Shown here piece after piece: positions 10,086 through 44,259 of a stretch of 64,000 nucleotides of DNA. The first letter of the stretch is position 1. Each line of letters begins with the position of its first letter. Under the pieces are notes generated by a model. The model saw nothing but the letters and a program-made list of their open reading frames with translations, was not told the origin of the DNA and made no database searches. Source of the stretch: Caballeronia sp. dw_276 (GTDB lineage Bacteria > Pseudomonadota > Gammaproteobacteria > Burkholderiales > Burkholderiaceae); NCBI RefSeq assembly GCF_018449635.1, contig NZ_JAAVUV010000017.1:1-64000 (forward strand), read 5' to 3'. The position numbers and the translations under genes were made by a program.

Positions 10086-10086
10086 C

Positions 10087-12472: not shown

Positions 12473-12490
12473 CACCTTCACCAAGATTCA

Positions 12491-13753: not shown

Positions 13754-13772
13754 TTTGCAAGGAGAACGCGCG

Positions 13773-14663: not shown

Positions 14664-14735
14664 CGGCTCTTCGGTTTATCGTGCGGCAACTTGCGGTTCC
14701 AGCACGCGCAGCGCGTTGCCCGACTTTCCCCGATA

Positions 14736-15587: not shown

Positions 15588-15602
15588 GCCATCACCCGCC
15601 TC

Positions 15603-16724: not shown

Positions 16725-16738
16725 CGTTATGGCGCGCT

Positions 16739-17431: not shown

Positions 17432-17485
17432 GCCACGATTTTATACGCGGCAAGAATGCGCTGCAGGCGAAGAATTAAAGCGCGA

Positions 17486-17737
17486 TCAGGAAATCTTGAA
17501 GATGTTTTGCGCACCGCGAACGTAGAGGCTTTCGGCTTTCAGCAGAATGCGTTCACGATAAAGATCGAATGCCGCAAGCACGGCGGTCTCGTCCGATCCC
17601 ATTTGCGGATTGAAGCTGGAGAGCGCGGCGTCGCCAATCTGGAACGAGATCTCGCGCGAGCCGTCATACCCCCAGAAGCACACACAGTGCCGGGAGGTAT
17701 CGTAGGAACGGCTGGGATTGGGGAAATTGAGTTTCAT
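17486..17737 (-). CDS. DUF1488-family small protein
   Basis: This 83-residue protein has the compact pattern of DUF1488: an early MKLNFPNPSRSYD, then FWGYDGSREISFQI and a closing helix. Members are cytosolic and of unknown function. The ATG at 17737 has GGGACT upstream. It sits 54 bp upstream of the Pr6Pr-like gene on the same strand, so the two may be cotranscribed. Confidence 0.7.
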   Translation of the reverse strand: MKLNFPNPSRSYDTSRHCVCFWGYDGSREISFQIGDAALSSFNPQMGSDETAVLAAFDLYRERILLKAESLYVRGAQNIFKIS

Positions 17738-17908
17738 ACGCCATCGTAGTCCCTTTCATGCAAACGGCGCGACGCTCATGTCGATAGTGATTACCCTTAG
17801 GACTTATTTCTACGAAGTCGTACGCCATTTGTAATGAAGCGGACAAGGGCGCGCTTCAAGTAGACTTTGGTCCCACGTATTCGATTGAACCCAAGACGCT
17901 CTGCCCTT

Positions 17909-19330: not shown

Positions 19331-19339
19331 CGCAACTCA

Positions 19340-28113: not shown

Positions 28114-28138
28114 GCGGCGGCCCTGTTCAGGCCGCCGC
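28114..28138. terminator. GC-rich hairpin between DUF2945 gene and yejF
   Basis: A perfect 9-bp stem (GCGGCGGCC, 28114-28122, with 28130-28138) encloses a 7-nt loop and overlaps the stop codon of yejF. It sits between converging genes and can act on both, although no T-run follows it. Confidence 0.55.
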
Positions 28139-29740
28139 GCTCGCCACCAACGAGGCCGCAAGCAAGGCCTGCGTGTATGGATGCACGGGCGCTTGCAAAA
28201 CCTGCATCGTTTCTCCTATCTCCACGATCTTCCCCGCTTTCATCACGACGACACGGTGCGCCATTGCGCGCATCACGGCCAGATCGTGCGTGATGAACAG
28301 ATAACTCAGCGTGTACTTTTTCTGCAGGCGAGTGAGAAGGCTGAGCACTTGCTGCTGTATCGAGACGTCAAGCGCGCTCGTAGGCTCGTCAAGCACGAGG
28401 AGTTCCGGCTCGACCGCAAGCGCCCTTGCAATAGCAATACGTTGCCGCTGTCCGCCGGAAAATTCCTGCGGATAGCGCGGCAGCACCTCGGCCGGCAAGC
28501 CCACCTCTTCCAGCAATTGCGCAACCCGCCGACGCCGCGCAGCCGCATCCACCTCGGGCCGATGCAACGCGATACCCTCGCCCACAATTTGCTCGATCGT
28601 CATGCGCGGAGAGAGCGAACCGTACGGGTCCTGAAACACAACTTGCAGCCGCGATGAAATCATTCGTCGCGAGTTCGCGCTCTTGAGCGTGGACATGGGC
28701 TGTCCGTCTATATGGATTCCGCCGAGCGTCGGCCGCTGCAAACCCAGGATGGTCGCCGCCAACGTCGACTTGCCCGAGCCCGATTCGCCGACCACGCCAA
28801 GCGTTTCACCGCGGCGCAAGGTGATGTCGATATCATGCAATGCCCTGAACGATGACTGCGTGAACGCCGAGCGCCAACCCTTCGCCGGCGCGCGGTAATC
28901 AACTGCGAGACCCTGCACTTCGAGCAGTCTCCTGGCATTCGGCGCAATCGGTTCAATGGCGCGCTGCGGCTCGCTGTCAAGCAAACGGCGCGTGTACGGG
29001 TGCTGCGGATTCGCGAACAGCGCGGCGGTCGTGTTTGTCTCGACCAGCACGCCTTTCTCCATCACTGCGACCCTCTGCGCGAAGCGCTTCACCAGATTCA
29101 GGTCATGCGTGATGAGCAACACCGCCATGCCGCGATCGGCCGCTTCCTGTTCCTGCAAATCGATGAGCAGATCCACTATTTGCTGGCGCACGGTGACGTC
29201 GAGCGCCGTGGTGGGTTCATCGGCGAGAAGGAGCCTTGGGCGGCATGCGAGCGCCATTGCTATCATCGCGCGTTGCCGCTGACCACCGGATAATTGATGC
29301 GGATAACTATCTATCCGGCGTTCCGGCTCCGGAATTCCGGTTCGCCTCAACAATTCTATGCCGCGTTCGCGCGCTGCATTCGGCCGCAAGCCCTCGTGGA
29401 GACGCAAGCTCTCCGCGATCTGCTTGCCGATGGTGAAAAGCGGATTGAGCGCGGTCATCGGTTCCTGGAAAACCATGGCGACATCGCGGCCGCGAATGCC
29501 GCGCATCTGCTGCTCGGTCTTTTGCAGGAGGTCGTCGCCGTCCAGCAGGATACGTCCGGTCTGACGCGCGTTTTCAACGAGCCCGAGTATCGACAGCGCC
29601 GTCACGCTTTTGCCCGACCCCGACTCGCCAACGAGCGCGACACGTTCACCGCGTGCGATCGAAAGACTCAGGTCCTGGACCACGGTTTTATCTCCGAAAC
29701 CAATGGACAGATGATCGAGTTGCAACAAGGGCGTGCTCAT
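28127..29740 (-). CDS. yejF: Peptide ABC transporter ATPase, two fused domains (YejF)
   Basis: This 537-residue protein has two complete ABC domains: the first with GESGSGKS (about 37-44) and LSGGQRQR (about 155), the second with the same GESGSGKST (about 314) and FSGGQRQRIAIARAL (about 425), plus LLLADEPT and LVLDEPT Walker B motifs. The double-ATPase form is diagnostic of YejF of the Yej oligopeptide importer. It powers uptake across the inner membrane. It is the last gene of the operon and overlaps the yejE stop by 4 bp (ATGA). Confidence 0.93.
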   Translation of the reverse strand: MSTPLLQLDHLSIGFGDKTVVQDLSLSIARGERVALVGESGSGKSVTALSILGLVENARQTGRILLDGDDLLQKTEQQMRGIRGRDVAMVFQEPMTALNPLFTIGKQIAESLRLHEGLRPNAARERGIELLRRTGIPEPERRIDSYPHQLSGGQRQRAMIAMALACRPRLLLADEPTTALDVTVRQQIVDLLIDLQEQEAADRGMAVLLITHDLNLVKRFAQRVAVMEKGVLVETNTTAALFANPQHPYTRRLLDSEPQRAIEPIAPNARRLLEVQGLAVDYRAPAKGWRSAFTQSSFRALHDIDITLRRGETLGVVGESGSGKSTLAATILGLQRPTLGGIHIDGQPMSTLKSANSRRMISSRLQVVFQDPYGSLSPRMTIEQIVGEGIALHRPEVDAAARRRRVAQLLEEVGLPAEVLPRYPQEFSGGQRQRIAIARALAVEPELLVLDEPTSALDVSIQQQVLSLLTRLQKKYTLSYLFITHDLAVMRAMAHRVVVMKAGKIVEIGETMQVLQAPVHPYTQALLAASLVASAAA

Positions 29741-30858
29741 TTCTGCGCGCCTCCGAAAGCCGAGCCGCGCGTGCGCGTATCGAGAGCATTACGCAATGCG
29801 TCGCCCATGAAGGTCAGGAGCAGCAACGTGATCACCAGCGCGCCGAAAGCCGCGCCCGAGATCCACCATGCATCGAGGTTGTTCTTGCCTTCGGCAAGCA
29901 GTTCGCCAAGGCTCGGTGTGGGCGCGGGCACGCCGAGCCCGAGAAAATCGAGACTCGTCAGCGCAAGAATGGCCGCGCTCATGCGGAATGGCAGGAAGGT
30001 GATCACGGGCGTGAGGCTGTTGGGCAGCACATGGCGCCACATGATCTGCCAATTGGAAAGGCCCATCGTGCGAGCCGCGCGTACGTAATCGAGTGAACGG
30101 TTGCGGAGGAATTCGGCGCGCACATAGTCCGACAACGTCAGCCACCCGAACGCCGACAATAAAATAAAAAGCAGCCACAGCGTCGGCTCGAATATCGATG
30201 CAAAGATGATCAGGAGATACAGGTCCGGCATCGAACTCCAGATTTCGATCAGGCGCTGGCCGATCAAATCGGTTCGCCCGCCGTAGAAACCCTGCACGGC
30301 GCCCGCCAGAACGCCCAGCACGACGCCGGATATCGTCAGCGCGATTGCCATGAGGACGGAGAGCCGGAAACCGTACAGCAGGCGCGAGAACACATCGCGC
30401 CCGAACTGGTCAGTGCCGATCCAGTTTTTCACCGACGGCGGCGCGGGATTGGGTCGTGTTGCGAAGTAGTCGACAGTATCGTAGTGAAAATGAATCGGCG
30501 GATAGATTGCGAAGTTACCCTTCGATTCCAGCCGGTCGCGGATATACGGGTCGAGGTAATTCGTACGCGCGGGGAAATCGCCGCCGAAGATCTTCTCCGA
30601 ATAATCCTTCACCACCGGAAAATAGTAGTGGCCTTCGTAACGCACGATCAGCGGCCTGTCGTTTGCGAGCACTTCGCCGAGCAAGCTGATTGCGAACAAC
30701 ATCACGAACACGATGGTGCTCCAGTAGCCCAGCCGCTGGGATTTGAAACGCAGCCATACGCGCCGCCCGGGAGCGACTGAACGCACGGGTTCCGGCAGCG
30801 CGGTCACGCTCTCACCGGTCCAGCCGGTCGAACTGGATACGGGGGTCGACGAGGACAT
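29737..30858 (-). CDS. yejE: Peptide ABC transporter permease (YejE)
   Basis: This 373-residue membrane protein has the DppC/OppC-type permease domain, with an N-terminal periplasmic segment of about 130 residues between segments 1 and 2 that is the Yej form. The EAA-like loop is MGLSNWQIMWRHVLPNSLTP (about 277-297). It forms one half of the inner-membrane channel. It overlaps yejF by 4 bp and its ATG at 30858 lies inside yejB; the TTG at 30873 is an alternative. Overlaps of this size imply translational coupling. Confidence 0.93.
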   Translation of the reverse strand: MSSSTPVSSSTGWTGESVTALPEPVRSVAPGRRVWLRFKSQRLGYWSTIVFVMLFAISLLGEVLANDRPLIVRYEGHYYFPVVKDYSEKIFGGDFPARTNYLDPYIRDRLESKGNFAIYPPIHFHYDTVDYFATRPNPAPPSVKNWIGTDQFGRDVFSRLLYGFRLSVLMAIALTISGVVLGVLAGAVQGFYGGRTDLIGQRLIEIWSSMPDLYLLIIFASIFEPTLWLLFILLSAFGWLTLSDYVRAEFLRNRSLDYVRAARTMGLSNWQIMWRHVLPNSLTPVITFLPFRMSAAILALTSLDFLGLGVPAPTPSLGELLAEGKNNLDAWWISGAAFGALVITLLLLTFMGDALRNALDTRTRGSAFGGAQK

Positions 30859-31861
30859 AACAGACGTCTGCAATGAGCTTGGTCACAAGACCAATCAGGG
30901 TGAACAGGAACAATGATCCAAGCACGACCGGATAATCGCGGCGGATCACTGAATCGTAGGAAAGCTGGCCCATGCCATCGAGAGAGAAAAGCGTTTCGAT
31001 CAACAGATTGCCGTTGAGGAACGCGCCCACGAAGGCAGCAGGCAAACCGGTCAGGAGCGGGATCATCGCGTTGCGCAAGACGTGTTTCCAGAGCACGTCG
31101 CGTTGCGGCGCGCCCTTCGCGCGCGCGGTCAGCACGTATTGCCGCCCGATTTCCTCGAGGAAGGTGTTCTTCGTGAGGATGGTGACGATCGCAAAATTGC
31201 CGACGACCGACGCGGTAACCGGCAAAGCGATATGCCACAGATAATCGAGCACTTTCCCGGCGACGCTGAGCTGCTCGAAATCATCCGATGTCAGCCCGCG
31301 CATGGGGAACACCTGCCACATGGAGCCGCCGCCGAACAGCATCAGCAGCAACACGCCAAGCACGAAGCCAGGGATCGCGTAGCCGGCCAGCACCACGATG
31401 CTGGTGGCGGTATCGAAGCGTGATCCGTTGCGTATGGCCTTCGAGATTCCGAGCGGCACAGCGATCAGGTAGGTCAGCAAGACAGTCCACAGTCCAAGCG
31501 TGATGGAGACAGGCAGTTTGGATCGAATCACTGCCCACACACTTTGATGCTGGTAATAAGACTGACCGAGGTCGAACGTCGCGTAGTGCTTCAACATGAT
31601 GAAGTAACGCTCGATCGGCGGTTTGTCGAAGCCGAATTGTTTTTTCAGTTGCTCGACTTGTTGCGGGTCCACGCCCTGCCCGCCGTGATAACCACCGCCT
31701 CCGCCCGCCTCGCCGCCATGGTTCACACCGTGACGCAACTGGCTCATGATTTGTTCGACCGGGCCACCCGGCACGAATTGGGTGACCACGAAAGTGAGCG
31801 TGACCACGCCGATCAGGGTGGGAATCATCAGCAACAGACGTCTCAGTATATAAGCAGCCAC
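30812..31861 (-). CDS. yejB: Peptide ABC transporter permease (YejB)
   Basis: This 349-residue membrane protein opens with the DppB-type sequence YILRRLLLMIPTLIGVVTLTF and has a Gly-rich periplasmic loop (about 44-60) typical of YejB. The EAA loop reads ARAKGAPQRDVLWKHVLRNAMIPL (about 245-268). It pairs with YejE as the permease. It begins 7 bp after yejA and overlaps yejE by 47 bp, so all four are one transcript. Confidence 0.93.
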   Translation of the reverse strand: MAAYILRRLLLMIPTLIGVVTLTFVVTQFVPGGPVEQIMSQLRHGVNHGGEAGGGGGYHGGQGVDPQQVEQLKKQFGFDKPPIERYFIMLKHYATFDLGQSYYQHQSVWAVIRSKLPVSITLGLWTVLLTYLIAVPLGISKAIRNGSRFDTATSIVVLAGYAIPGFVLGVLLLMLFGGGSMWQVFPMRGLTSDDFEQLSVAGKVLDYLWHIALPVTASVVGNFAIVTILTKNTFLEEIGRQYVLTARAKGAPQRDVLWKHVLRNAMIPLLTGLPAAFVGAFLNGNLLIETLFSLDGMGQLSYDSVIRRDYPVVLGSLFLFTLIGLVTKLIADVCYVLVDPRIQFDRLDR

Positions 31862-31868
31862 GGCGGTC

Positions 31869-33707
31869 TCAATGTGTAGGTGCGATTGCTGCGGACGTGG
31901 GCTTCACGAACCAGTAATCGATCAGCCAGTCCTCGGCGTAATAAGAGTTCGGCAGGACCTTCGGATAGGCCATTCGCGCTTTGTACCCCACGCGCACATT
32001 CGGCGCATAGTACTCGGGCACGATGTAAAAGCCGTTGATCAGAATGCGGTCGAGCGCATGCGTTGCGGTCTGCAGATCGGCGAGCGTATTGGCTTTGAGC
32101 GCGGCGTCGATCATGGCGTCAGCGGCTTTCGATCTCACGCCAGGAAAGTTTTCCGACCCCGGTTGCGACGCGGCGGCGCTGCCGAACCGCCGCGTCAGCT
32201 CGCCGCCCGGAATGGTCACCGGCGAATAGATGTACGTGGTCATATCGAAATCGAATGCGTCCATGCGTTTGCCGTAGAGCGCACTGTCGAGTTCGCGCAT
32301 ATGCGCCTGGATGCCGAGCGTTTGCAACTGCTGCACGAACGGCATGACCACGCCATCCATGCCGGGTTGATCGTCCATGATTTCAATCGACATGGCCGTG
32401 CCGTTTGCATCGCGCAACGCACCATCGCGATAGGTCCATCCCGCCTCGTTGAGCAGCGCCTGGGCTTCGCGCAAGTTCGCGCGTATGGAATGCGGCGGCG
32501 TGGTATCGGGTTGCTTGAGCATGGGGCCGAATACGGACGCTGGAAGCTCTGACCGATACGGCTCCAGCAACGCCAATGCCTTTGCGTCCGGCACGCCGGT
32601 CGCACCAAACGGACTGTCCTGGAAATAACTTCCCGTACGCCGGTACTGGCCGTAGAACGTCAGCCGGTTCAGCCACTCGTAATCGAACGCAAGCGTTAGC
32701 GCGTGGCGTACGCGAGGATCGGTGAATTGGGGCCTGCGCGTATTCATGAAGATGCCCTGCATCTGCGCGGGGCCATCGGGGAAAAGACCTTTTTTCAGCG
32801 ACCCGTTCGCGATGTTCTTGCCGACGTACTTACGCGCCCACGTACCCGATGAATATTCCACGCGCATGTCCGTATGCCCCGCCTTGAAGTCCTCGAGCGA
32901 TGTGTAGTGATCGGTGAAGAGACGGAACGTGATGCGCTTGAACCGGTACATGCCGCGCCGCGAAGGCAAATCAGCAGCCCAGTAATCCGGATTGCGCACG
33001 TAGGTGATCTGCTTGTCGTTCTTGCGCTGTTCGATCAAATAAGCGCCGCTTGCAAGCGGCGGATCGCTGGCGATCTTGTCGAATGAAGGACGCGTGCCGT
33101 CCGGCTTCATGCCCCACTTCGGGGAGAACACCCACAGGTCTCCGGCGGTCAACGGCGCATCGCGGCGCGCTTCCTTGAAATCGAAACGCACCGTCAGGCG
33201 ATCGATCACCGTCGCCTTTGTGATGTTGGCGAACTGCGAGTTGTAGATGGGCGAGACCTGATTGCTCGAAAGCGTGTCGTACGAATACTTCACATCGGCT
33301 GCGGTGATCGGATCGCCATTCGAGAATCGCGCTTTCGGATTGATGTGAAAAGTCGCGGACTTGCCGTCGGACGCGACCTTTACGTCGTCGGCTATCAACG
33401 GATACTCCGATGCCAACTCGTCCCAGCTGCGCTGCATCAGCGTGTCGAACATGAGATTCTTCAGGTCGGGCGCAGGCGCGCCGCGAACCAGGAACGGATT
33501 CATCGAATCGTAGCTTTGCAGCTCGTCGTAGTTCTGGAAGTTCATGTCGCCGTCGTTCGGCGCGTCGGGGTCCGCGTAGTCGAAATGCGTGAAGTTCGCC
33601 GGATATTTTGGCTCGTCGTATTGCGCAATCGATGGACGGGCAAGCGTCCCCTGTGCCACGAACACCACGCCGAGCGCGAGCGTCATCAGCTTTACTGCAT
33701 TACTCAT
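31869..33707 (-). CDS. yejA: Peptide ABC transporter periplasmic binding protein (YejA)
   Basis: This 612-residue protein begins with a signal peptide (MSNAVKLMTLALGVVFVAQG, cleavage near Leu-Ala) and is a family-5 solute-binding protein of YejA type, with ending DWLIDYWFV. It captures peptides in the periplasm for the YejBE-F importer; the E. coli system imports microcin C and other peptides. The ATG at 33707 overlaps the stop of the upstream tonB by 8 bp (ATGAGTAA), so it is chosen over the frame's earlier start at 33749. It is longer than E. coli YejA by a few residues only. Confidence 0.93.
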   Translation of the reverse strand: MSNAVKLMTLALGVVFVAQGTLARPSIAQYDEPKYPANFTHFDYADPDAPNDGDMNFQNYDELQSYDSMNPFLVRGAPAPDLKNLMFDTLMQRSWDELASEYPLIADDVKVASDGKSATFHINPKARFSNGDPITAADVKYSYDTLSSNQVSPIYNSQFANITKATVIDRLTVRFDFKEARRDAPLTAGDLWVFSPKWGMKPDGTRPSFDKIASDPPLASGAYLIEQRKNDKQITYVRNPDYWAADLPSRRGMYRFKRITFRLFTDHYTSLEDFKAGHTDMRVEYSSGTWARKYVGKNIANGSLKKGLFPDGPAQMQGIFMNTRRPQFTDPRVRHALTLAFDYEWLNRLTFYGQYRRTGSYFQDSPFGATGVPDAKALALLEPYRSELPASVFGPMLKQPDTTPPHSIRANLREAQALLNEAGWTYRDGALRDANGTAMSIEIMDDQPGMDGVVMPFVQQLQTLGIQAHMRELDSALYGKRMDAFDFDMTTYIYSPVTIPGGELTRRFGSAAASQPGSENFPGVRSKAADAMIDAALKANTLADLQTATHALDRILINGFYIVPEYYAPNVRVGYKARMAYPKVLPNSYYAEDWLIDYWFVKPTSAAIAPTH

Positions 33708-34458
33708 CGTCGCTCGCGGTTGTCTTGAACGAGAACTGCACTTCACCAACGTATGGCTCCGGATTCTTCTCGCATTTATAACCCTTGCCTGCTGCGATCA
33801 CCGCTTCGTTGAAGACGGATGTCGGCGGCGAGACGCGCATGATCTTGACGTCGCTGACCTGGCCATCGGTGCCGATCGACAAGCGCGCTGTCACGGTCGC
33901 CGAGATACCGTCCTGCAGCGCCTTGCGCGGGATCTGCGGTTGCACGGACTGGCAATGACCACGGCCATCCACCACGCCATGCAAGCCCGGCGCCGGCGCG
34001 GGAGTGGGTGCGGCCGCCGCGGCAACCGGTGCAGCAGGCGTCGTGTTCGCCGGCGCTGTTGCGAGCGCGGGCGCGTTCGGCGTCGGATTGGCCGCGGCGG
34101 GAATGTTCGCTTCCTTCGGCGCGGGTGCAGGTTTCGCGGGCGGCGGTTTCGGGGTCGGCAATGGCTTGGGCTTGACCGGTGTCGGCTTCGGTTTTTCCAC
34201 CGGCGTGGGTGCGGGCGGCGGTTCGATCTTCTTCACTTCGGGCGGCGGCGGTGGCGGAGGGGGCGGCGGCGCCATGGTCACGCGCATCTCCTTGGGCGGC
34301 GTTTGCACCGGCGCAAAGTTCACGTGCGTGAGGCCGTAAATCATCAGCACCGTCACGACGACCGCCGCCGCGACGAACACGCCCATCGGCTGATGCCGAT
34401 GTTGCGCGTGCGCGGATGCCCATAGTGCGCCCTTCAATGGTTCATGCGAATCGTTCAT
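33700..34458 (-). CDS. TonB-family energy-transducing protein, copy 1
   Basis: This 252-residue protein has the TonB architecture: a short N-terminal cytosolic part, one membrane segment (about 26-48, GVFVAAAVVVTVLMIYG), a Pro-rich periplasmic spacer with a run of ten prolines near 65-74, Lys-Pro repeats, and a C-terminal domain (about 165-252). The last has the TonB fold pattern QPQIPRKALQDGISATVTARLSI but with IP in place of the usual YP. Two cysteines (GHC and YKC) are conserved in copy 2. It transmits inner-membrane energy to outer-membrane receptors. It lies 13 bp after the oppA-like gene and overlaps yejA. Confidence 0.88.
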   Translation of the reverse strand: MNDSHEPLKGALWASAHAQHRHQPMGVFVAAAVVVTVLMIYGLTHVNFAPVQTPPKEMRVTMAPPPPPPPPPPEVKKIEPPPAPTPVEKPKPTPVKPKPLPTPKPPPAKPAPAPKEANIPAAANPTPNAPALATAPANTTPAAPVAAAAAPTPAPAPGLHGVVDGRGHCQSVQPQIPRKALQDGISATVTARLSIGTDGQVSDVKIMRVSPPTSVFNEAVIAAGKGYKCEKNPEPYVGEVQFSFKTTASDDE

Positions 34459-34471
34459 GACGGGATTGGGC

Positions 34472-36124
34472 TCAGTGCTTGATGATGTACAGGTCTTCGC
34501 TGCGGTAGTGGTCCATCGGATTCTTCGTGGAATAACCGCCCACGTAGCTTTTCACGAGACGCACGAGCGTGTATTGCAGGAGCGGCAGCATTGGATAATC
34601 TTCCATTGCAACCTTGCCGGCTTCTGTTTGCAGCTTCAGGCGCGTGGCCGGATCTGTGGAATTCGAGGCTTCATGCATCAGTGCATCGGCTTTCGGATTG
34701 CAGGCCTGGTTGTCGTTCTGCTCCGAGCCGCACTGAACCAGCGTGAGGAACGTACTGGCGTCGTTGTAGTCGGCGACCCAGCCGTTGCGCGCAATCTGGT
34801 AGTCCCCGTCATGGCGCTTTTTCAGCAAGACCTTGAATTCCATCGCCTGAATGTCGGTGTCGAGCCCGAGCTTGCTCTTCCATTCCGATGCCGCGAAGAT
34901 CGCCATTTTCTTGTGATACTCGCTGGTGTTCATCGCGAATTGCAGCTTGGTGCCCGGCTTCACGCCCGCTTCCGCCAGCAGCTTCTTTGCCTCTTCCACG
35001 CGCTTCGCCATGGGCCATGAGGCCCAGTCATATGCGTTCACGTCCGCGCCCTTCACGCCTTTCACGATCACGCCATACGCCGCAATCTGGCCATCTGCCG
35101 TGACGCGCTGGGCGAGAATGTCGCGGTCTATGGCCATCGACAAAGCCTTGCGCACGCGTACATCCTTCAGCAACGGGTCTTTGTTGTTGAAGGAGTAATA
35201 GCGCAAGCCGAGCATGGGCGCGGCGCGCATCTCGTTCGGATACTCCTGCTTGTAACGCGCGAACGTGCCCGACGGCAATTGATAAACCCAGTCGTTGCCA
35301 CCCGACTCGTACTGCTTTACGTCGGTGTTCTCATCTTCGATAGGCAGGTACGTCACCTGGTTGAGTTGCACGTAACCCGCGTTCCAATAATTTGGGTTCT
35401 TCGCGAGCACGAGCCGATTGTTCACTTGCCAGTCTTTCAGCATGAACGCGCCGTTGCTGACCAGCTTGCCGGGCTTGGTCCAGTCCTTGCCGTTCTTCTC
35501 CATCGCAGCTTTATTGATAGGGCCGAAGTTCGTGTTTGTCATCAGGTCGGGCAGGAACGGCACCGGATACGGGGTCTTTATTTGCAGGGTATTAGCGTCA
35601 ATGGCCGTCACGCCAAGCGATGCAACCGGCTTCTTGCCCGCGACGATTTCCGTGCCGTTCAGGAGGAACATGCCGTAGGTGTTCGCGTACGGCGATGCCG
35701 TTTTTGGATCGACGAGCCGCTGGCAACTGAAGACAAAATCCGCTGCCGTGACCGGTTCGCCGTTGGACCACTTCGCGTTCTTCCGCAGATGAAAGATCCA
35801 CGTTGTCGGGTCTTTCATTTCCCACTTTTCGGCGACGCCGGGTACCGTTTCGCCATCGGAGCGAACGGCGGTCAGGCCTTCGAAGAGATCACGCGTGACG
35901 TTGTTCGCCGGCACGGACTCGGCGACGTTCGGATCGAGCGTCTCGACTTCGCTGCCGTTGTTGCGCACCAGTTCCTGCTTCGCGGCGAGTTGCGTTCCGG
36001 GCGGGATGATGGCTGCGCGGGCGAGATCAGGCAGGATTGCGGCGCTTACGAGACACGCGGCCAATAAAGCGGAGGACCGGCGCGATGAACGAACAGATGG
36101 GGAAGCGAACGAAGCGAAATACAT
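34472..36124 (-). CDS. Oligopeptide-binding protein (OppA-like), periplasmic
   Basis: This 550-residue protein has a signal peptide (about 1-38, ending Ala-Arg-Ala) and is a family-5 solute-binding protein in the MppA/OppA group: LVRNNGSEVETLDPNVAES, TWIFHLRKNAKWSNGEPVTAADFVF and DVRVRKALSMAIDRD. OppA-type proteins bind 2-5-residue peptides with little side-chain preference. It is encoded between two tonB copies, within the same apparent operon as Yej, though it has no dedicated permease. The ATG at 36124 follows GGGAG; a TTG 3 bp earlier is in the frame too. The gap upstream to copy 2 tonB is 156 bp. Confidence 0.9.
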   Translation of the reverse strand: MYFASFASPSVRSSRRSSALLAACLVSAAILPDLARAAIIPPGTQLAAKQELVRNNGSEVETLDPNVAESVPANNVTRDLFEGLTAVRSDGETVPGVAEKWEMKDPTTWIFHLRKNAKWSNGEPVTAADFVFSCQRLVDPKTASPYANTYGMFLLNGTEIVAGKKPVASLGVTAIDANTLQIKTPYPVPFLPDLMTNTNFGPINKAAMEKNGKDWTKPGKLVSNGAFMLKDWQVNNRLVLAKNPNYWNAGYVQLNQVTYLPIEDENTDVKQYESGGNDWVYQLPSGTFARYKQEYPNEMRAAPMLGLRYYSFNNKDPLLKDVRVRKALSMAIDRDILAQRVTADGQIAAYGVIVKGVKGADVNAYDWASWPMAKRVEEAKKLLAEAGVKPGTKLQFAMNTSEYHKKMAIFAASEWKSKLGLDTDIQAMEFKVLLKKRHDGDYQIARNGWVADYNDASTFLTLVQCGSEQNDNQACNPKADALMHEASNSTDPATRLKLQTEAGKVAMEDYPMLPLLQYTLVRLVKSYVGGYSTKNPMDHYRSEDLYIIKH

Positions 36125-36280
36125 CAAGGAAACTCCCGGAATTCATTACTTGCCGCAAATGGCCAACGGCCGTTCGCGGTTACAGCGGCCTTCGACATGC
36201 GTTACGCGTTGAGCGCCACACGCCGAAGGTTTGGTTCATGGTTGTGATCGATCAGCTCTGGCGAACGCGTTCGAGGCGCG

Positions 36281-37063
36281 TCATTCGTCGTCGCTGCTCG
36301 GCGCCGTCTTGAACGAGAAGGTCACCTCGCCAACATACGGTTCGGCGTTCTTCTCGCACTTGTAGGCCTTCGCGGCGGTCGTGACGGCTTCATTGAAAAC
36401 CGAAGTCGGTGGTGTTGTCCTGACGATTTTCACCGCGCCCACGCTGCCGTCCGGGTTGATCGTCAGATGCGCGATCACGTCGGCCGAGATGCCGTCCTGC
36501 AGCGCCTTGCGCGGAATCTGCGGCTGCACGGACTGACAATGTCCACGGCCGTCGACCACGCCATGCAATGCAGGCGGTGCGACAGGCGCTGCGCCCGTGG
36601 CTGCGACCGGCGGACCCGGCGGCGAATCGGACGGCGTCGTCGCCACGGCCGGCGCATTGGCGGACGGATTCGCCGCAGCCGGAATCTGCGCTTCCTTGGG
36701 CGCCGCCGATGGTTTGGCCGGCGGCGGTTTGGGCGTAGGCAACGGCTTGGGCTCGACCTTCTTCGGCACCGGCTTTTGCGGCGTGGGCGCCGGCGGCGGC
36801 TCGAGCTTCTTCACCTCGGGCGGCGGCGGTGGCGGAGGCGGCGGAGGCGCCATTCGCACCCGCAGTTCCTTTGGAGGCGGCGGCGCATCGGGCGTGAAGT
36901 TCACGTGCGAGAGACCGGCAATCAGCAACAACTCGACCAGCAGCGCGGCGCCGACCGCGACTTTCATCGATACCTTGCCGTCCTTCGATGCTCCCTTCGA
37001 CGCCCACAGCGCCCCGTCCAGAGGCACGCGAGGCGTGCTGACCAGATGTACAGGAGCGTTCAT
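36281..37063 (-). CDS. TonB-family energy-transducing protein, copy 2
   Basis: This 260-residue protein is a clear duplicate of the tonB at 33700-34458. The same order is kept: N-terminal segment, membrane segment (about 34-52), ten-proline run (about 73-82), Lys-Pro spacer and a nearly identical C-terminal region (LHGVVDGRGHCQSVQPQIP, TSVFNEAV, YKCEK, EPYVGEV). Differences cluster in the Pro/Ala-rich spacer and the N-terminus. It overlaps the exbD stop by 4 bp (ATGA), so exbB-exbD-tonB form a standard TonB complex. Which receptors each copy serves is not known. Confidence 0.9.
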   Translation of the reverse strand: MNAPVHLVSTPRVPLDGALWASKGASKDGKVSMKVAVGAALLVELLLIAGLSHVNFTPDAPPPPKELRVRMAPPPPPPPPPPEVKKLEPPPAPTPQKPVPKKVEPKPLPTPKPPPAKPSAAPKEAQIPAAANPSANAPAVATTPSDSPPGPPVAATGAAPVAPPALHGVVDGRGHCQSVQPQIPRKALQDGISADVIAHLTINPDGSVGAVKIVRTTPPTSVFNEAVTTAAKAYKCEKNAEPYVGEVTFSFKTAPSSDDE

Positions 37064-37482
37064 GTCGTCGGATTCGTCGCCAATGCCACGGAGCTGATGC
37101 CGGCCGCGCGCACCAGGTCCATTACGTGGATGATGTTCTTGTAGCTTGTGCCCTCGTCGCCGGAGATGGCGACGTCGACCTTCTTCGAATCGCTCACAAG
37201 GCCTTTGAGGCGCGTGGTGAGTTCGTCGGGCGTGATGGGTTTCGCGTCGAGGTAAAGCTCGTCGGTCTTAGTCACGCCGATCGATACCTTGATGGTCTGC
37301 TGCAACGCCTCAGCGGTGCTCGATTGCGGCAAGTCCAGCTTGATGCCCGCGCCCTGAATCATCTTGAGCGTGGCGAGCATGAAGAAAACCAGCAGGAACA
37401 TCATGATGTCGATCATCGGGATGATCTCGATGCGTGCCTTCTCTTCCGCGCCCAGATAATGACTGCGGTGATTTCTACTCAT
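37060..37482 (-). CDS. exbD: ExbD, TonB complex subunit
   Basis: This 140-residue protein has one membrane segment (about 21-43, IPMIDIMMFLLVFFMLATL) whose Asp25 in MIDIMM is the conserved proton-pathway residue of ExbD/TolR. A soluble periplasmic domain follows. ExbB and ExbD form the proton motor that drives TonB. AGAGG lies 5 bases before ATG 37482. It overlaps the next gene (tonB) by 4 bp and follows exbB by 75 bp. Confidence 0.93.
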   Translation of the reverse strand: MSRNHRSHYLGAEEKARIEIIPMIDIMMFLLVFFMLATLKMIQGAGIKLDLPQSSTAEALQQTIKVSIGVTKTDELYLDAKPITPDELTTRLKGLVSDSKKVDVAISGDEGTSYKNIIHVMDLVRAAGISSVALATNPTT

Positions 37483-37557
37483 CTCTTACCTCTTCTGTTT
37501 CCAAACGGCATTGATGCATGCGCGGCATACGGCTCGAGAGCCCTTTTATGCAGCAGC

Positions 37558-38211
37558 TCATGCAGCAATTTCAGGGCGCACTTCGGCGTTGCGGCGAACC
37601 GGCGCGGAGAAGCGCGAGACCAGCAGCGACTTGATCAGGTCGAACTGATTGACCGTCATGCGGATGCGTTTGTTGAAGTAGTTGAGAAAGATCACGCAGA
37701 TGATGGCGATGACAAGACCGCAAGCCGTGGCCGTCAGCGCATGTCCAATGCCGCCCGTCACGCCGTTGGGATTCGCCGTGCCGCTTGCGCCCAATACATT
37801 GAACGACTCCACCATGCCGATGATCGTGCCGAGCAGGCCGAGCAGCGGCCCGAGCGTGACGGCGGTATCGAGCACCCACAGGTTACGGTCGAGGCGCGGC
37901 ATCTGGAACATGATCGCCTCTTCCACTTCGCGCTCGACAACGGCTTCGTCGCGGCCATTGACCTTCATGGCGGTCTTCACGAGTTCGGCCTGCACGGTCG
38001 AGTCGTAATGCTTGACGAGCTTCGCGGCATCTTCGGGGTGGTTGGCCTTCAGGAGCTTCAGATCGTGCTCGATGGTCTTGCCAGCGCGCACCGCTCTCGC
38101 AAAGAACACCAGACGCTCGATGATCACGGCCATGCCCAGCAGGAAGATGACGCCGAGAAGGGGAATAAGGCCCATCGACTGGACCGAATAATTAATGAGG
38201 GTATTCAGCAC
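37558..38211 (-). CDS. exbB: ExbB, TonB complex proton channel subunit
   Basis: This 217-residue protein has the MotA/TolQ/ExbB pattern: membrane segments at about 13-33, 108-134 and 155-178, with LLGLLGTIIGMVESF and HALTATACGLVIAIICVI. It forms the pentameric channel around ExbD. The start is GTG 38211 with CGGAG upstream. It is the first gene of the exbB-exbD-tonB-oppA-tonB-yejABEF operon, so the operon promoter should lie within 38212-39228. Confidence 0.93.
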   Translation of the reverse strand: MLNTLINYSVQSMGLIPLLGVIFLLGMAVIIERLVFFARAVRAGKTIEHDLKLLKANHPEDAAKLVKHYDSTVQAELVKTAMKVNGRDEAVVEREVEEAIMFQMPRLDRNLWVLDTAVTLGPLLGLLGTIIGMVESFNVLGASGTANPNGVTGGIGHALTATACGLVIAIICVIFLNYFNKRIRMTVNQFDLIKSLLVSRFSAPVRRNAEVRPEIAA

Positions 38212-39228
38212 TGCGGACTCCGGTTAGGACAAACGACGCTAATCATTTTGTGGATGACGGTATTTCTTTATGCGGGCGGCTTCGTTTTCGACGCCGCTCG
38301 TAAAAGCGCGACTCTCTAAGCAACGGCTATGCCAAGCAATACGCTCGTGTTCCGCCCACTACGCTTGAAACGCGTTCGACCCGTTGATATTACGGCGAAT
38401 TTCCGGTTTTGACCCAATACATCGTTTGTTGTCCCTGATTCTGTCGGGCGCCGTAGCGCCTATATCGTTCGCCTGGAATAAGCTTAATTACGGCATGTCG
38501 ATCTTCTTCGCGGAATAAACCCATTCTTTGTGCACCAGATAATTATCATGGTGCTTATGAAAGCTGTACGTAATATATATGCCTCAGTCATGTTTTCGAT
38601 TATCGAGGATTTCGCATGCTCCGAAACCCTGAGCTTCCCGATCGGCCTCAACACCGCTATAGCAAAGAGTTTGCACGGGGTATTACATAAACGCATTGCT
38701 TATGTTTATACTGTGCACACACGTCGTGATAACTATCAATCGCGGCTTTCAAACCGTAATGCACATTGTGATGCAGCCCGCTCCCTTTCAAGGTGCAGGG
38801 GTTGCACCATATTAATTAGACTAAATCCTCTAACTCCCCTTACAAACAACAGCGCGTCAAAATAAAGGGTGTTATTGCGACTCTGGAATACTGTTTAACG
38901 TTAATTCCTAAACAGTAATTTCCAATAAAAATAAAAACGCATTCATTTCAAATTCTTACTGCAGAAATAAATAGCCGTATTCGGCTTTTCTGTTAATTCC
39001 TTTTCGCAAATTGGCATAACTCGTGCTCTTGGTGCAGCCGCTTATCAACGGCGCCTTTCAACACGATTGAGATTGCGCCTTGACTGACGATGTTCAAACG
39101 ACGCAACCAGCGTTTAGCGCGCCCCGCAATAAAAAGCGTCGACAAACATCGCATGACCGGTCCGTGCAACTCGCACGAGCCGGCCGGTTGGTTCGATCAA
39201 ATATGCTCACTGACAAGAGGGAGAGCAC
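38212..39228. other. Large AT-rich divergent intergenic region
   Basis: This 1017-bp gap separates exbB (minus) and the TonB-dependent receptor gene (plus). Short open frames at 38484-38696 and 38530-38865 do not look coding. It contains a possible promoter (TTACAT at 38683 and TATACT at 38707, 18-bp spacer), a small hairpin GGTGCA-N5-TGCACC (38792-38808) and a hairpin with T-run (AGCCG-TATT-CGGCT-TTTC, 38973-38990). GATAATTATC at 38538 and GATAACTATC near 38732 recall Fur-type half sites but are poor matches. A short RNA or a long 5' leader for the receptor would fit. Confidence 0.4.
38683..38712 (+). promoter_or_regulatory. Possible promoter upstream of the TonB-dependent receptor
   Basis: TTACAT (38683-38688) and TATACT (38707-38712) are 18 bp apart and resemble a sigma-70 promoter (-35 four of six, -10 five of six). 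It is 517 bp upstream of the receptor start, so it would make a long leader or a separate RNA. Confidence 0.35.
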
Positions 39229-41937
39229 GTGAAACAGAAGAGATTGGTAACGGCGATCAAGGGCATCATTGGCGCCGAACTCGTGCTGAGCGCTGCATTC
39301 ATTCCGATGGCGCATGCACAAACCGCAGACCAGAGCGGCACAGGCGGCGCTTCGGGCACGACTTCCACAACGGCCACGACACCCGCCGCGTCGACGTCCG
39401 CGGCTCCGACCAAACTTGAAAAAGTGGAAGTCACGGGCTCGCTGATCCGCACTTCGGACAAGGTAGGCAACACAGAAGTCCAGACTGTGACAGCCAAGGA
39501 GATCGAACAAAGCGGCTACACCACGGTCGCCGATTTCCTGCGCGGCGTATCGGCGAACTCGGCCAGCAGCTGGTCGCAATCGACAATGAACAGCACCGCC
39601 CCGGGCGGCGCCGGCATTGCGTTGCGCGGCCTCTCCGAGAAGTACACGCTGGTGCTCGTCGACGGCCAGCGCGTCGCGAACTACGCGCAAGCGGTGAACT
39701 TCACCGATACCTTCTTCGACATCAACACGATCCCGCTGAACACCATCGACCGGATCGAAATCGTGAAAACGGGCGCCGTATCACAATACGGTTCGGACGC
39801 CATTGCCGGCGTGGTGAACATCATCACGAAGAAGAACTTCCAGGGCTTCCAGATCGACAGCCAGCTCGGCAAGGCACAACACCCGGGCGACGCACAAGGC
39901 AGCTTCAGCGTGCTCGGCGGCTTCGGCAACCTGGCGACTGACCGCTTCAACGTCACGGGTTCGGCAAGCTGGTACCGCGATTCGGGCTCGACCCTCGCTG
40001 ATCGCGACATGACCAGCAGCCAGGACTTCACGCGCTTTGGCGGCAACAACCTGCCGGCCGGCAACAACCAGCAGACCTTCTGGACCCAGCCGGACGGCAC
40101 CAACGTCCCGCTCAACCCCTGCCCGCCGAACACCACGACGGGACGCACCGGCGGCAGCACGTGTACCTACAACACGGCGCATGACTATTCGCTGGTTCCG
40201 TCGACCACACGCCTGAACGCCAAGGTGCGCGGCACGTTCCAGATCAACGACGACATGCAGGCTTACGCCGAGTTCTGGGGCAGCCGCGACGAGACCGTGC
40301 AGTACGGCGGCCTGCAGTCGGCGAGCAGCTTGTCGAACGTGTACAACCCGCAGACCAACAGCATTTCGCCGCTCAACCGTACGGTGCCGGGCACCAATCC
40401 GTTCAACCCGTTCGGCGTCGATACACCGATCAACTACACCTTCCCGACAGCGGGCGTAGGCGTGGATACCGTCTCGACGTTCTGGAAGGCATCGACGGGG
40501 ATCAAGGGATCGTTCACCACGCCGAAGCTGGGCGACTGGGACTGGTCTGTCGATGCAGGCCATTCGCAAAGCACGGTGGACAGCCACTTCTACAACTCGC
40601 TGGATGTGGCCGGCTGGCAGAACGTGCTGCAAAACGGCACGTACAACTTCCTGAATCCAGGCTCTACGCCGAACGGTCTCGACGGCGTGTTCCGTGACGA
40701 CTTCCAGCAAGCCATCACGAAGCTCGATACGGTCAGCGCGAAGACCTCGACATCGAATTTGTTCACGCTGCCTACAGGCAACGTGGGCCTCGGCCTCGGT
40801 ACCGAGTTCCGTCATGAGAGCTCGATCATCAACCCGCGCACGTATTCGTCGCAGGGTATCGTGTCGCCGGCGCAGATCCAGACGGTGGACGGCTCGCGCA
40901 ACGTGGCGGCCGTGTTCTACCAGGTCGAGATCCCGATCATCCGTGCATTGACGTTTACGCAGTCGGGCCGCTATGACCATTACAGCGACTTCGGCGGCGC
41001 GTTCTCGCCGAGCTTCGCGTTGCGCTATCAGCCGGTGCAGGCGTTCACGACCTACGCATCGTTCAGCCGCGGTTTCCGTGCACCGACGCTGGTCGAAAAC
41101 TCGCAGGCTTCGTACACGGGTCACCAGAACCTGACCGACCCGTTCGATCCCCGTGGGCCGACCAAGGCCTTCACGACCGAGTTCACGAACGGCAACCCGA
41201 ACCTTCAGCCTGAGCACACGAAGAACTACAACATCGGCTTCCAGTTGTCGCCGGATGCAACGACCGACATTGGCGCAGGCTTCTACAAGGTTCGCATTGA
41301 CGGTGTGATCGGCACGCCGGATCCGGTGGCAGTACTCGCCGCAAACGATCCGACCCAGGTCATCCGCAACCCGGACGGCACGCTGCGCTACATCAACTCG
41401 CAGTTCATCAACTTGGGCTCGCTCGATACCGATGGCTTCGACTTCAACTGGCGCAAGACGGTCGGCACGCCGGTCGGTTCGTTCACGCTGTCGGGTGACT
41501 GGGCCTATGTGTGGCACTTCAAGCTGCATAGCCCGGGCGCTGCGACGGCGGACTTCGCCGGTAACAACCTGGCGTTGAACCAGCCGTTCGGTGCATCGAA
41601 TCCGCGCTGGAAGGGCAACACGGACCTGACCTGGGATTACCGCAAGTTCACGACCACGCTGACCTGGCAATACACGGGTCCGTACACGAACGCGATTGCG
41701 GATATCAACGGGGACACGCCGTTGTCGGTGGCGTCGTATAGCCAGTTCAACCTGTTCACGAGCTATCACGGCTTCAAGAACTGGACCATCTATGCGGGCA
41801 TCAACAACCTGTTCGATAAAAAACCGCCGTTCGATGCCGAATGGACCTCGGGTGCAGATTTGACGGGTTACGACCAGTCGCTGTACACGGATGTCGGCCG
41901 CTTCTTCCAGATCGGCGCGACGTACCGGTTCAAGTAA
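39229..41937 (+). CDS. TonB-dependent outer-membrane receptor
   Basis: This 902-residue protein has a signal peptide (about 1-30, ending Ala-His-Ala), a Thr/Ser/Ala-rich linker, a TonB-box region near LEKVEVTGSLIR, a plug domain (about 85-195: TVADFLRGVSANSASS, GLSEKYTLVLVDGQRV, YGSDAIAGVVNIITKK) and a 22-strand-type barrel ending in a terminal Phe-Lys strand (GATYRFK). The start is GTG 39229 with GGGAG upstream. It imports a ligand across the outer membrane using energy from TonB. It faces the exbBD-tonB-peptide transporter operon, so its ligand may be a peptide; the ligand is not known. A terminator-like hairpin follows. Confidence 0.93.
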   Translation: MKQKRLVTAIKGIIGAELVLSAAFIPMAHAQTADQSGTGGASGTTSTTATTPAASTSAAPTKLEKVEVTGSLIRTSDKVGNTEVQTVTAKEIEQSGYTTVADFLRGVSANSASSWSQSTMNSTAPGGAGIALRGLSEKYTLVLVDGQRVANYAQAVNFTDTFFDINTIPLNTIDRIEIVKTGAVSQYGSDAIAGVVNIITKKNFQGFQIDSQLGKAQHPGDAQGSFSVLGGFGNLATDRFNVTGSASWYRDSGSTLADRDMTSSQDFTRFGGNNLPAGNNQQTFWTQPDGTNVPLNPCPPNTTTGRTGGSTCTYNTAHDYSLVPSTTRLNAKVRGTFQINDDMQAYAEFWGSRDETVQYGGLQSASSLSNVYNPQTNSISPLNRTVPGTNPFNPFGVDTPINYTFPTAGVGVDTVSTFWKASTGIKGSFTTPKLGDWDWSVDAGHSQSTVDSHFYNSLDVAGWQNVLQNGTYNFLNPGSTPNGLDGVFRDDFQQAITKLDTVSAKTSTSNLFTLPTGNVGLGLGTEFRHESSIINPRTYSSQGIVSPAQIQTVDGSRNVAAVFYQVEIPIIRALTFTQSGRYDHYSDFGGAFSPSFALRYQPVQAFTTYASFSRGFRAPTLVENSQASYTGHQNLTDPFDPRGPTKAFTTEFTNGNPNLQPEHTKNYNIGFQLSPDATTDIGAGFYKVRIDGVIGTPDPVAVLAANDPTQVIRNPDGTLRYINSQFINLGSLDTDGFDFNWRKTVGTPVGSFTLSGDWAYVWHFKLHSPGAATADFAGNNLALNQPFGASNPRWKGNTDLTWDYRKFTTTLTWQYTGPYTNAIADINGDTPLSVASYSQFNLFTSYHGFKNWTIYAGINNLFDKKPPFDAEWTSGADLTGYDQSLYTDVGRFFQIGATYRFK

Positions 41938-42294: not shown

Positions 42295-44259
42295 ATGAGC
42301 CTGTTATCTTTTCGCGCGCCCGTCCTGTACGCGGCGTGTCATCGCTGCGGCAATGCGCTGACCCACGGCGAAGACGAATGCCCGCATTGCGGCACGAACC
42401 AGTCGCGCGCCCTGCGCGTGATGGGCGCATCCAATACGGTCGACTACGGCAACAATGTCGTGCTGATGCCCGGCCGCATGCTCGTGCCTTACCCAAGCGT
42501 GCCGGAAGAAATCGATACCGCGATGAACATCGCGCGCGAAAGAAAACGCGTGCTGAAACGCGCCGCGTTCTACCTGGCAAGTGCCGGAATGCTCGCGATG
42601 GCGCTGGGGCTGGCCTATGCACCGGCGCTGCGCTCGCCGGCGGTGCAGCGGCTGGCGGCATTGCCCGAGCCCGCAATGCGCCGGGCGGTAATCGCGCCGG
42701 TCGTTCCCGTGGCGCCCGAGGACAACGCGGACGTTGCCATTGCGTCAAGCGCGACTGTGCTTGCAGCTGCCAGTTCGACGAACGTGCGCGATGTGGTGCC
42801 TGCGCCTCGAGCGGTTGTAAAGACGATCCCGCCCGCGAGTGTGGCGTCAAACCAGCCGAGCCAGCCGGTTGCTTCGCATGTCGTGAAGCAAGCCGCCGTT
42901 GACAAACCAGCGGCTGTCACTCCGCCTGCTGTCGTGGCGGTAAAACCCGTTGCACCGCCTGTTGTAGCGGTTGCATCACCGGAAACGAGCACCAGTTCTG
43001 AAAAGACCGCTGAGGCTTACGCGTCTGTCTCCGCCATGGCAAGCAACGCGCTCGCGGCGACGGAAGCGCAGGCCCACGCATTCAACCAGAACGTTGCGAA
43101 CACGTACAACGCGCTGCTGGCATTGGCTGTATCGACGATCCATCCGGCGCCGGCGGAAGTTTCTGCTCAGGCCGAGGCGCCGCCCGCCGTCTCGAGTTCG
43201 GCACCTCCAGCAGGCAAACCCGCTACCATTGCGAAGGCGGCGGCTCCCGCGCGTACGATTACCGCAAATACCCCGACGGCAATCGTGCATGCACCAGCCG
43301 TCGAGGAAGCCAAGCCTCGGGTAGAGACCGCCGTCACAACCCAAGCAGCGCCGGCTATCGCGCCGCCCGTGCAGGTTATGACGACAGCTGCGGCAGCCGC
43401 GCCCCGCCCGGCTCCGCCCGCGCCCAACCCGACCGCTACCGCCGATGTCCCGATCGCGAGTCACGCGCCGGAACCCTCCGCGCTGACTGAAAACGGCCTG
43501 CCGCGCATGTCTATGGCGCCCATCTCGCCTGCCATGACCGCCGAGCGTCCGCCTGCCGGCAGTCCCGGCGAGACGCTGTATATCGCGCGTCTGGCGCTGC
43601 TCACGAACGACCTGAGCGCCGCGCGCAAAAATCTCGCAGAGGTTCCGTCGTCGCTTGTCGACGATGTCGAAGCAAAGCGCATCCGAGAAGAACTTGCCCA
43701 ACGTGAAAGCGCACGCGATACCGCCATGCAACGCGCCCGCGCCTGCGACGCCGCTTCGTCCTGGCGCTGCGCACGCCGTTACGCAAAAGAAGCGATAACG
43801 ATCGACGCCAGCTATCCAGACTCGCGCGTCCTGCTCAAACGGGTGAATTTCAAGGCAGCGCAGGCGAAGAAAGCCGCCGATGCCGCCGCGCTCCAGGCCG
43901 GCGCTGCGAACAATGCAGCGCATGCGCCAGTGCATTCGGCGCCGATCCGCGAATCGGTCGCGGTGTCCGCGGTTTCGCGTTCCGTGACGCCGGGCGCGCC
44001 GCAACAGAACACGTACGCCGCGCCACCGGCGTCGTCGAACAGCAACAGCGCGCCACATTTGTTCGCAACGCCGCCCGTGCGTACGACGCACGAATCACAC
44101 GTGATTCATGACGCACGGGAAACACGCCCTATCGTCGAAACGCGCGAACCGATTACCGTTGCGCCGCCTGTGAAGGCTCCCGAGCCGGAAGAGTCGCAAT
44201 CACGCGTCTTTGGCGGCGGCGTACCGATCCGTCCACCGGGCCGCGGCGACGCACATTGA
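42295..44259 (+). CDS. Zinc-ribbon Pro/Ala-rich single-span membrane protein
   Basis: This 654-residue protein has three parts. Residues 15-33 hold a zinc ribbon with two CxxC pairs (CHRCG and CPHCG). A membrane segment lies near 91-110. The rest, mostly outside the cytoplasm, is a very Ala/Pro/Val-rich low-complexity stretch with many Lys and Ser; a more ordered helical part (about 415-530) has the LARLALLTNDLSAARKNLAEV pattern resembling a tetratricopeptide-like element, with two cysteines in ARACDAASSWRCARRYA. The ATG at 42295 follows AGGGGG by 6-7 bases. I do not recognise the family. It converges on the lipoprotein gene with a 15-bp gap. Confidence 0.75.
   Translation: MSLLSFRAPVLYAACHRCGNALTHGEDECPHCGTNQSRALRVMGASNTVDYGNNVVLMPGRMLVPYPSVPEEIDTAMNIARERKRVLKRAAFYLASAGMLAMALGLAYAPALRSPAVQRLAALPEPAMRRAVIAPVVPVAPEDNADVAIASSATVLAAASSTNVRDVVPAPRAVVKTIPPASVASNQPSQPVASHVVKQAAVDKPAAVTPPAVVAVKPVAPPVVAVASPETSTSSEKTAEAYASVSAMASNALAATEAQAHAFNQNVANTYNALLALAVSTIHPAPAEVSAQAEAPPAVSSSAPPAGKPATIAKAAAPARTITANTPTAIVHAPAVEEAKPRVETAVTTQAAPAIAPPVQVMTTAAAAAPRPAPPAPNPTATADVPIASHAPEPSALTENGLPRMSMAPISPAMTAERPPAGSPGETLYIARLALLTNDLSAARKNLAEVPSSLVDDVEAKRIREELAQRESARDTAMQRARACDAASSWRCARRYAKEAITIDASYPDSRVLLKRVNFKAAQAKKAADAAALQAGAANNAAHAPVHSAPIRESVAVSAVSRSVTPGAPQQNTYAAPPASSNSNSAPHLFATPPVRTTHESHVIHDARETRPIVETREPITVAPPVKAPEPEESQSRVFGGGVPIRPPGRGDAH

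Follow-up and report, generated by a model that had tools for sequence, protein, structure and literature searches.

In Pseudomonas aeruginosa, a TonB-dependent receptor (TBDT), SppR, is linked to a family-5 ATP-binding cassette (ABC) importer, SppABCDF, and the system is associated with xenosiderophores; the NppA1A2BCD importer of Pseudomonas presumably employs two binding proteins. The gene sppR is PA2057 (PMC5971595; this and the other papers cited are quoted from the excerpts available). RagAB of Porphyromonas gingivalis, which is of the SusCD type, performs TonB-dependent peptide uptake (PMC11817032), and MbnT-MbnE takes up a peptidic molecule by means of a TBDT and a binding protein related to YejA (PMC7558416). 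For phazolicin, transposon sequencing (Tn-seq) failed to pinpoint an outer-membrane route (PMC10128002, PMC9790009). Here we analyze a stretch of 64,000 nucleotides from Caballeronia sp. dw_276 (contig NZ_JAAVUV010000017.1, hereafter the window), in which a TBDT stands opposite a minus-strand cluster encoding an ExbB-ExbD-TonB energizer, a second TonB, an OppA-like binding protein and a YejABEF-like ABC importer. With moderate confidence, we interpret this locus as a single energized pathway that imports oligopeptides or molecules resembling peptides. Judged by titles and the openings of abstracts, our literature search returned no description, for Proteobacteria, of a TBDT coupled to Yej or to oligopeptide import, a weak negative given its partial journal coverage; a phrase search for TonB-dependent peptide transporters returned RagAB of Porphyromonas only, and no such peptide system was found in the excerpts of a review of Burkholderia iron uptake (PMC5681537).

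Linkage of the receptor to peptide importers

All ten frames of the cluster described by the original prediction are open and fall into the families named there (Table 1). The same gene order was sought in other genomes, with gene maps of the related loci built by tblastn, and the ten-gene arrangement recurs at 91–100% identity in two genomes of the same genus (L006 and L007). We then drew 200 Burkholderiaceae genomes evenly across the family. YejA-like proteins of either kind are present in 172 of them. Locus-type YejA shares 64–100% identity with the window protein (at least 889 bits) and occurs at 37 places in 36 genomes, while a second group, among the matches listed, shares about 47–52% identity and scores 671 bits or less. 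Many yejA matches of this housekeeping type (for example in G072, G048, G148 and G136) contain one TGA, perhaps from alignment past the stop. The window genome has one YejA of each kind. Its housekeeping-like yejABEF, on contig C23 (C23:114648, L045), shares 62–68% identity with the window yejF, yejE and yejB and 50% with yejA, and has no neighboring TBDT, the nearest on that contig being ~89 kb away.

Locus-type yejA lies less than 10 kb from the receptor at 36 of the 37 places, with a median gap of 362 bp and a maximum of 5.5 kb, and every one of the 36 genomes with locus-type yejA also has the receptor. The window genome served as a control: of its 15 TBDTs, 3 have a family-5 binding protein within 10 kb, these being the window locus, a cluster on contig C12 and one judged to be an unrelated neighbor. 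A locus on C23 (L002) was rejected as a receptor-importer cluster: the receptor there is opposite a CobW gene, and the importer of family 5, ~9 kb off, looks separate.

Counted at E ≤ 1e-180, with the best four candidates scored per genome, the receptor subfamily is found in 42 of the 200 genomes, which belong to 9 of the 25 sampled genera; of the 23 genomes listed for its own genus, 3 have it. Paraburkholderia xenovorans LB400 also carries the receptor (protein P0042, 70% identical). An order-wide search (E ≤ 1e-150) found it in one of 300 genomes, the window genome itself. In seven of its nine genera the receptor has a linked importer of Yej or Opp type; since the ten-gene arrangement also recurs, the locus is more than a chance association. 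Thirty-five of the 42 receptor genomes are Yej-linked and three (G015, G036 and G052) have a full oppABCDF in the cluster instead. In G016 the locus-type yej is unlinked and one receptor copy stands beside another family-5 importer (L031); G058 and G165 show the energizer only, within the stretch read, and the G038 stretch breaks off at a contig edge. Counted by copies, 44 of 56 receptors have locus-type yejA within 10 kb. Comparison across these genomes thus shows the receptor and a putatively specialized yej paralogue to be inherited together. The coupling of receptor, energizer and peptide importer that had been predicted is well supported by the yejA linkage and by the presence of Opp instead in three genomes.

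We compared 42 Yej-type loci, chosen by similarity of YejA, receptor or DNA to the window and hence not an even sample. The receptor is present in 41 of them. A first, non-window type of energizer is found in 29 and the second, window type in 9; either type is present in 38 and no locus has both. The two sets are far apart, with ExbD only about 22–32% identical. The arrangement tonB-exbB-exbD-exbD-TPR protein-HTH/cupin regulator-receptor-yejABEF is seen in many Burkholderia and Paraburkholderia; in a further common one, the regulator and receptor stand ahead of the tonB-exbB-exbD-exbD-TPR block. A tree was built of 54 receptors, each matching with 44% identity or more over more than 650 aligned residues (L126–L131 left out). 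In it, the 16-row clade of the window receptor mixes Yej, Opp, both importers together, and both energizers. Three genomes of another genus have the same receptor and energizer adjoining a full oppABCDF, not Yej, and L033–L035, within the window receptor clade, have Opp in place of Yej. In Paraburkholderia tuberum (L046) and P. sprentiae WSM5005 (L127), a single receptor is flanked by exbB-exbD-tonB-yejABEF and by oppABCDF. Caballeronia sp. SBC2 (L128) has a receptor of 52% identity with the other energizer, followed on one strand by oppA (86%) and yejABEF (85–91%), with no oppBCDF beside them. This comparison shows that, with closely related receptors, importer and energizer can be replaced by other sets. 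In the window, two units seem to have merged, one being exbB-exbD-tonB and the other oppA-[tonB]-yejABEF; such an origin would account for the two TonB genes and for an OppA that has no permease genes.

Among the best 80 of 580 relatives, taken as named genome-contig loci, 71 lie outside the 54-receptor table. Eight of these match a family-5 permease or binding protein (L061, L062, L065, L068, L071, L079, L092 and L102) and four more give an ATPase match only. The L071 locus, from Pseudomonas spelaei (6532–19589), encodes on one strand an extracytoplasmic function (ECF) sigma factor, FecR, two tandem TBDTs and YejABEF. Identity to the window is about 25–32% for the TBDTs and 34–52% for yejABEF, and the locus is apparently an independent TBDT-Yej pairing.

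Composition of the locus

Table 1 Features of the window locus and the matches that identify them.
Feature	Positions	Strand	Basis
TonB-dependent receptor, 902 aa, outer-membrane entry	39229..41937	+	Pfam PF07715, PF00593
Divergent intergenic region, 1,017 bp, presumed promoters/control sites	38212..39228		sequence, open reading frames
exbB, 217 aa, energizer proton-channel part, type A	37558..38211	-	PF01618
exbD, 140 aa	37060..37482	-	PF02472
tonB1, 260 aa, proline-rich energy transducer	36281..37063	-	PF03544, 30.9 bits
oppA-like periplasmic peptide-binding protein, 551 aa	34472..36127	-	PF00496; solved relative 3zs6
tonB2, 252 aa, second TonB	33700..34458	-	PF03544, 29.9 bits
yejA-like periplasmic binding protein, 612 aa (ATG)	31869..33707	-	PF00496
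yejB-like permease	30812..31861	-	PF00528; NCBIfam YejB
yejE-like permease (ATG)	29737..30858	-	PF00528; NCBIfam PRK15021
yejF-like fused double ATPase, 537 aa	28127..29740	-	two PF00005 stretches; NCBIfam YejF

The receptor matches both the Plug (73.9 bits) and barrel (137.5 bits) families of a TBDT above their cut-offs. In the energizer, ExbB and ExbD score 110.5 and 115.3 bits in Pfam, likewise above the cut-offs, and both TonBs exceed the family cut-off of 24.6 bits, although tonB1 falls slightly below that of NCBIfam TIGR01352 (25.4 against 27.1 bits). No ExbB, ExbD, TolQ or TolR model of NCBIfam reaches its cut-off, the best being TolQ (67.5 of 221 bits) and TolR (83.4 of 127.3 bits). 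ExbB-ExbD is the likelier name, taken from Pfam rather than NCBIfam, because tonB genes adjoin. The window ExbB is 75–84% identical to those of L023, L033–L035 and L046. The TonB was originally described as duplicated. Two tonB genes are indeed present, but a recent tandem duplication was rejected: in the tree, tonB2 pairs with the TonB encoded ahead of yejA in P. tuberum (L046; C-terminal identity 88%, local support 0.956), whereas tonB2 and tonB1 (75–78%) are not grouped together.

The importer has the order A-B-E-F and a fused double ATPase, and the best matches of its B, E and F proteins are the Yej models. The scores miss the NCBIfam cut-offs for YejB (427.9 of 445 bits), YejE (395.6 of 439) and YejF (623.6 of 834), so we call these genes yej-like; two of the three housekeeping copies in the same genome miss them as well (YejB 453.6, YejE 386.2, YejF 630.6). 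The solved relatives of the window YejA are 4ony (344 bits), 7z8e (340 bits), YejA entries (314–317 bits) and MbnE (289 bits). Upstream TTG codons offer alternative starts for yejA (33749, giving 626 aa) and yejE (30873).

The OppA protein matches PF00496 at 298.7 bits and its best solved relative, 3zs6, is a periplasmic oligopeptide-binding protein (556 bits). It retains the segment R-x-G-W-x-A-D-Y-N, as RNGWVADYN, compared with RAGWCADYN in 3tcf and RDGWFADYN in 3zs6; we take this segment to contain the peptide contacts Arg413, Trp416 and Asp419. The window locus lacks an oppBCDF for this protein. Such genes stand beside oppA in L033–L035, L046 and L127, and elsewhere in the window genome (L132), whose OppA is the closest to that of the window by BLAST (77%) outside the orthologues in L006, L007 and L128. 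It had been suggested that OppA shares the Yej permease. The oppA-yejABEF arrangement of Caballeronia sp. SBC2 and the precedent of YepA favor YejBEF, although the complete oppABCDF of L132 could serve instead; the window OppA may thus be served by either YejBEF or the distant OppBCDF.

On the minus strand, the genes follow the order exbB-exbD-tonB1-oppA-tonB2-yejA-yejB-yejE-yejF, with junctions of +75, -4, +153, +13, -8, +7, -47 and -4 bp. These bear out the overlaps in the original prediction (4–8 bp at three junctions and 47 bp at yejB-yejE), while its short gaps elsewhere apply to most junctions but not to tonB1-oppA (153 bp) or receptor-exbB (1,017 bp). The yejB-yejE overlap is not special to this locus, because the housekeeping yej operon of the same genome also has one (~53 bp, by alignment). 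The receptor and the minus-strand cluster are necessarily separate transcripts, and an extra promoter ahead of oppA is possible. The divergent region contains conserved islands common to L006 and L007; scans for sigma-70 promoters and terminators gave signals no more than in shuffled sequence.

Beyond the receptor lie open reading frames at 42295–44259 (+, 654 aa) and 44275–45342 (-, 355 aa), which have no Pfam match and are kept in L006 and L007. The genome as a whole (6.79 Mb, 83 contigs) encodes 15 TBDTs, 6 TonB C-terminal domains and 15 family-5 binding proteins.

Candidate ligands and alternative readings

We propose that the receptor would bind its ligand outside the cell and that ExbB-ExbD, with TonB1, TonB2 or both, would open the receptor with energy from the proton gradient, as expected of these families. 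In the periplasm, YejA would capture the peptide, with OppA probably covering a second ligand range, and YejB-YejE with the double ATPase YejF would pump it into the cytoplasm. Degradation might then fall to TldE/TldD in those relatives that carry them, and to general peptidases in the window host.

A peptide-like ligand is suggested because Opp replaces Yej, PmbA/TldD peptidases accompany 18 of the 42 Yej-type loci, a peptide symporter is a neighbor in one relative and OppA keeps its contact segment; the swap and these neighbors lend indirect support to the ligand class originally predicted. TldE belongs to the PmbA/TldD metallopeptidase family and follows yejF in L008, L009, L014–L018, L020, L023, L024, L027, L041–L043, L046, L051, L058 and L130. 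TldD is present in 16 of the 42 loci, and 16 of the 18 with TldE have it too. The tldE-tldD pair is often next to the tonB-exbB-exbD-exbD-TPR type of cluster, downstream. In L025 (17545–19200), yejF is followed by a symporter of the POT/PTR2 family. That the receptor stays constant while peptide importers are exchanged is, in our view, good circumstantial evidence for energized peptide uptake.

TldD/TldE matches also lie near seven more distant receptors, in Massilia, Rugamonas, Janthinobacterium, another member of the Oxalobacteraceae and Stenotrophomonas. A link outside the Burkholderiaceae was rejected: at the sole locus examined, Massilia L068, a full-scoring TldD/PmbA protein stands beside YhdP, and we take it to be a housekeeping copy.

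Several observations count against a peptide import line. TldE was not found in 24 of the 42 Yej-type loci, although 4 of the 42 have less than 1.4 kb beyond yejF, and in L010, L011, L013 and L022 yejF is followed instead by a gene for an AcrB-type resistance-nodulation-division (RND) pump (about 1,053–1,126 aa; called by Pfam in L010, L013 and L022 and by clustering in L011), which says nothing about peptides. In the window, none of the 8 flanking open reading frames scanned is a peptidase, and the locus-type TldE is absent from the genome, where there is only a 27% match. For 12 of the 56 receptor copies, no locus-type yejA lies closer than 10 kb, and 9 of the 54 in the receptor table show no importer of either the Yej or the Opp type, some of these being located where a contig ends. 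Given the gaps of 153 and 1,017 bp, the genes may or may not be co-expressed. The top NCBIfam model for the receptor is of heme type, far under its cut-off (143 against 317 bits), and family-5 ABC importers also move non-peptides, apparently so in the L001 cluster of the window genome. L001 (C12:507000–526500) encodes a TBDT, a luciferase-like monooxygenase, an aldo-keto reductase, NMT1-type and family-5 binding proteins, permeases, a fused ATPase, TonB, ExbB and ExbD, and is probably a powered route for a sulfur compound.

The ligand may be a modified peptide or a peptide-metal chelate. As a reading of its own, possible though rather unlikely, the locus would serve a peptide-derived metal chelate or modified peptide (a peptidic siderophore, a methanobactin-like molecule or another ribosomally synthesized and post-translationally modified peptide) instead of food peptides; the peptide pump would be used since the chelator is a peptide, and TldE/TldD of the relatives would open the chelator in the cytoplasm. 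The TldE/TldD neighbors fit this, and TldD/E have a role in microcin B17 maturation. Outside its own genus the receptor is 45–74% identical to the window copy around one importer, a wide variation as expected with changing ligands, and the distant P. spelaei cluster includes an ECF sigma factor and FecR. MbnT-MbnE provides a precedent with copper-methanobactin (PMC7558416), and MbnE is among the relatives of the window YejA given above. Against this, the window receptor has no STN domain in Pfam, and the 8 flanking open reading frames scanned include no siderophore-type biosynthesis gene and no sigma factor or FecR, so FecIRA-type signaling is not indicated. The same 8, scanned with Pfam, include no methanobactin biosynthesis genes, although many other open reading frames of the window were not scanned. 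No Fur-box-like site is present in the window (E. coli consensus, up to 3 mismatches), a weak test because the whole genome has only 2. A palindrome, GATAATTATC, at 38538–38547 in the divergent region is not kept in the two closest genomes (L006 and L007), which also counts against a chelate, and a Fur-box signal at the locus was rejected.

A non-peptide ligand (heme, an opine-like molecule or a sulfur compound), for which family-5 binding proteins and ABC pumps were reused, is unlikely. The solved relatives of OppA include heme-, nickel- and agrocinopine-binding proteins, and the best NCBIfam match of the receptor points the same way, but with its low score. The nearest relatives of the importer, however, are Yej and Opp, both of peptide type and both found with the same receptor, and the neighbors in relatives are peptidases and a peptide symporter.

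Scavenging of external cell-wall (muro)peptides, by YejBEF with OppA/MppA-like and YejA-like binding proteins, hardly seems likely either. YejBEF and YepA import muropeptides in Agrobacterium (PMC9790009), and the window OppA is related to murein-peptide-binding proteins (391–393 bits); the best oligopeptide binders score higher (472–556 bits), though one group just 397 bits, and YepA is reported, in the excerpt, to be exclusive to Alphaproteobacteria (PMC9790009). That a stand-alone TBDT system merely lies beside a yej operon, as the commonness of both gene families and the 12 receptor copies away from locus-type yej might suggest, is highly improbable and already disfavored, since the housekeeping yej is elsewhere, and it is a different paralogue, the locus-type yej, that accompanies the receptor at nearly all its places.

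Extending the favored import line for peptides or peptide-like molecules, the Burkholderiaceae loci could be modular lines for one class of modified peptides. A fast-changing receptor, sometimes in two adjacent copies, would select the molecule, which a peptide pump, either fixed or swapped, would import and TldE/TldD would open in many members; competitors' ribosomal or peptidic metal-binding products would be taken, with a possible Trojan-horse entrance. We regard this wider picture as doubtful.

Comparison with described systems

TonB-dependent entry of peptide antibiotics is already known. If our interpretation is true, many Burkholderia and Paraburkholderia would have an active, dedicated outer-membrane route for peptides, with a named receptor, and the fate of its ligand when the importer is swapped (Yej for Opp) under an unchanged receptor becomes testable.

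SppR-SppABCDF can be likened to the window locus by description, not by sequence. With RagAB, the locus would share TonB-driven peptide uptake across the outer membrane, but RagA has a lid protein, RagB (PMC11817032), whereas Pfam finds no SusD domain in the ten locus proteins. MbnT-MbnE offers the same pairing of a TBDT with a YejA-related protein; its inner-membrane step is described as unknown in the excerpt (PMC7558416), while the window has a whole linked yejBEF set. YejABEF, YejBEF-YepA and the Npp system of Pseudomonas are of the same ABC importer class, in which one permease can take different binding proteins, but they are presented in the excerpts as inner-membrane systems without a dedicated outer-membrane receptor (PMC10128002, PMC9790009). 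Thus, the parts of the locus are known from RagAB, MbnT-MbnE and YejBEF-YepA, and their combination in one cluster is a variant of these systems.

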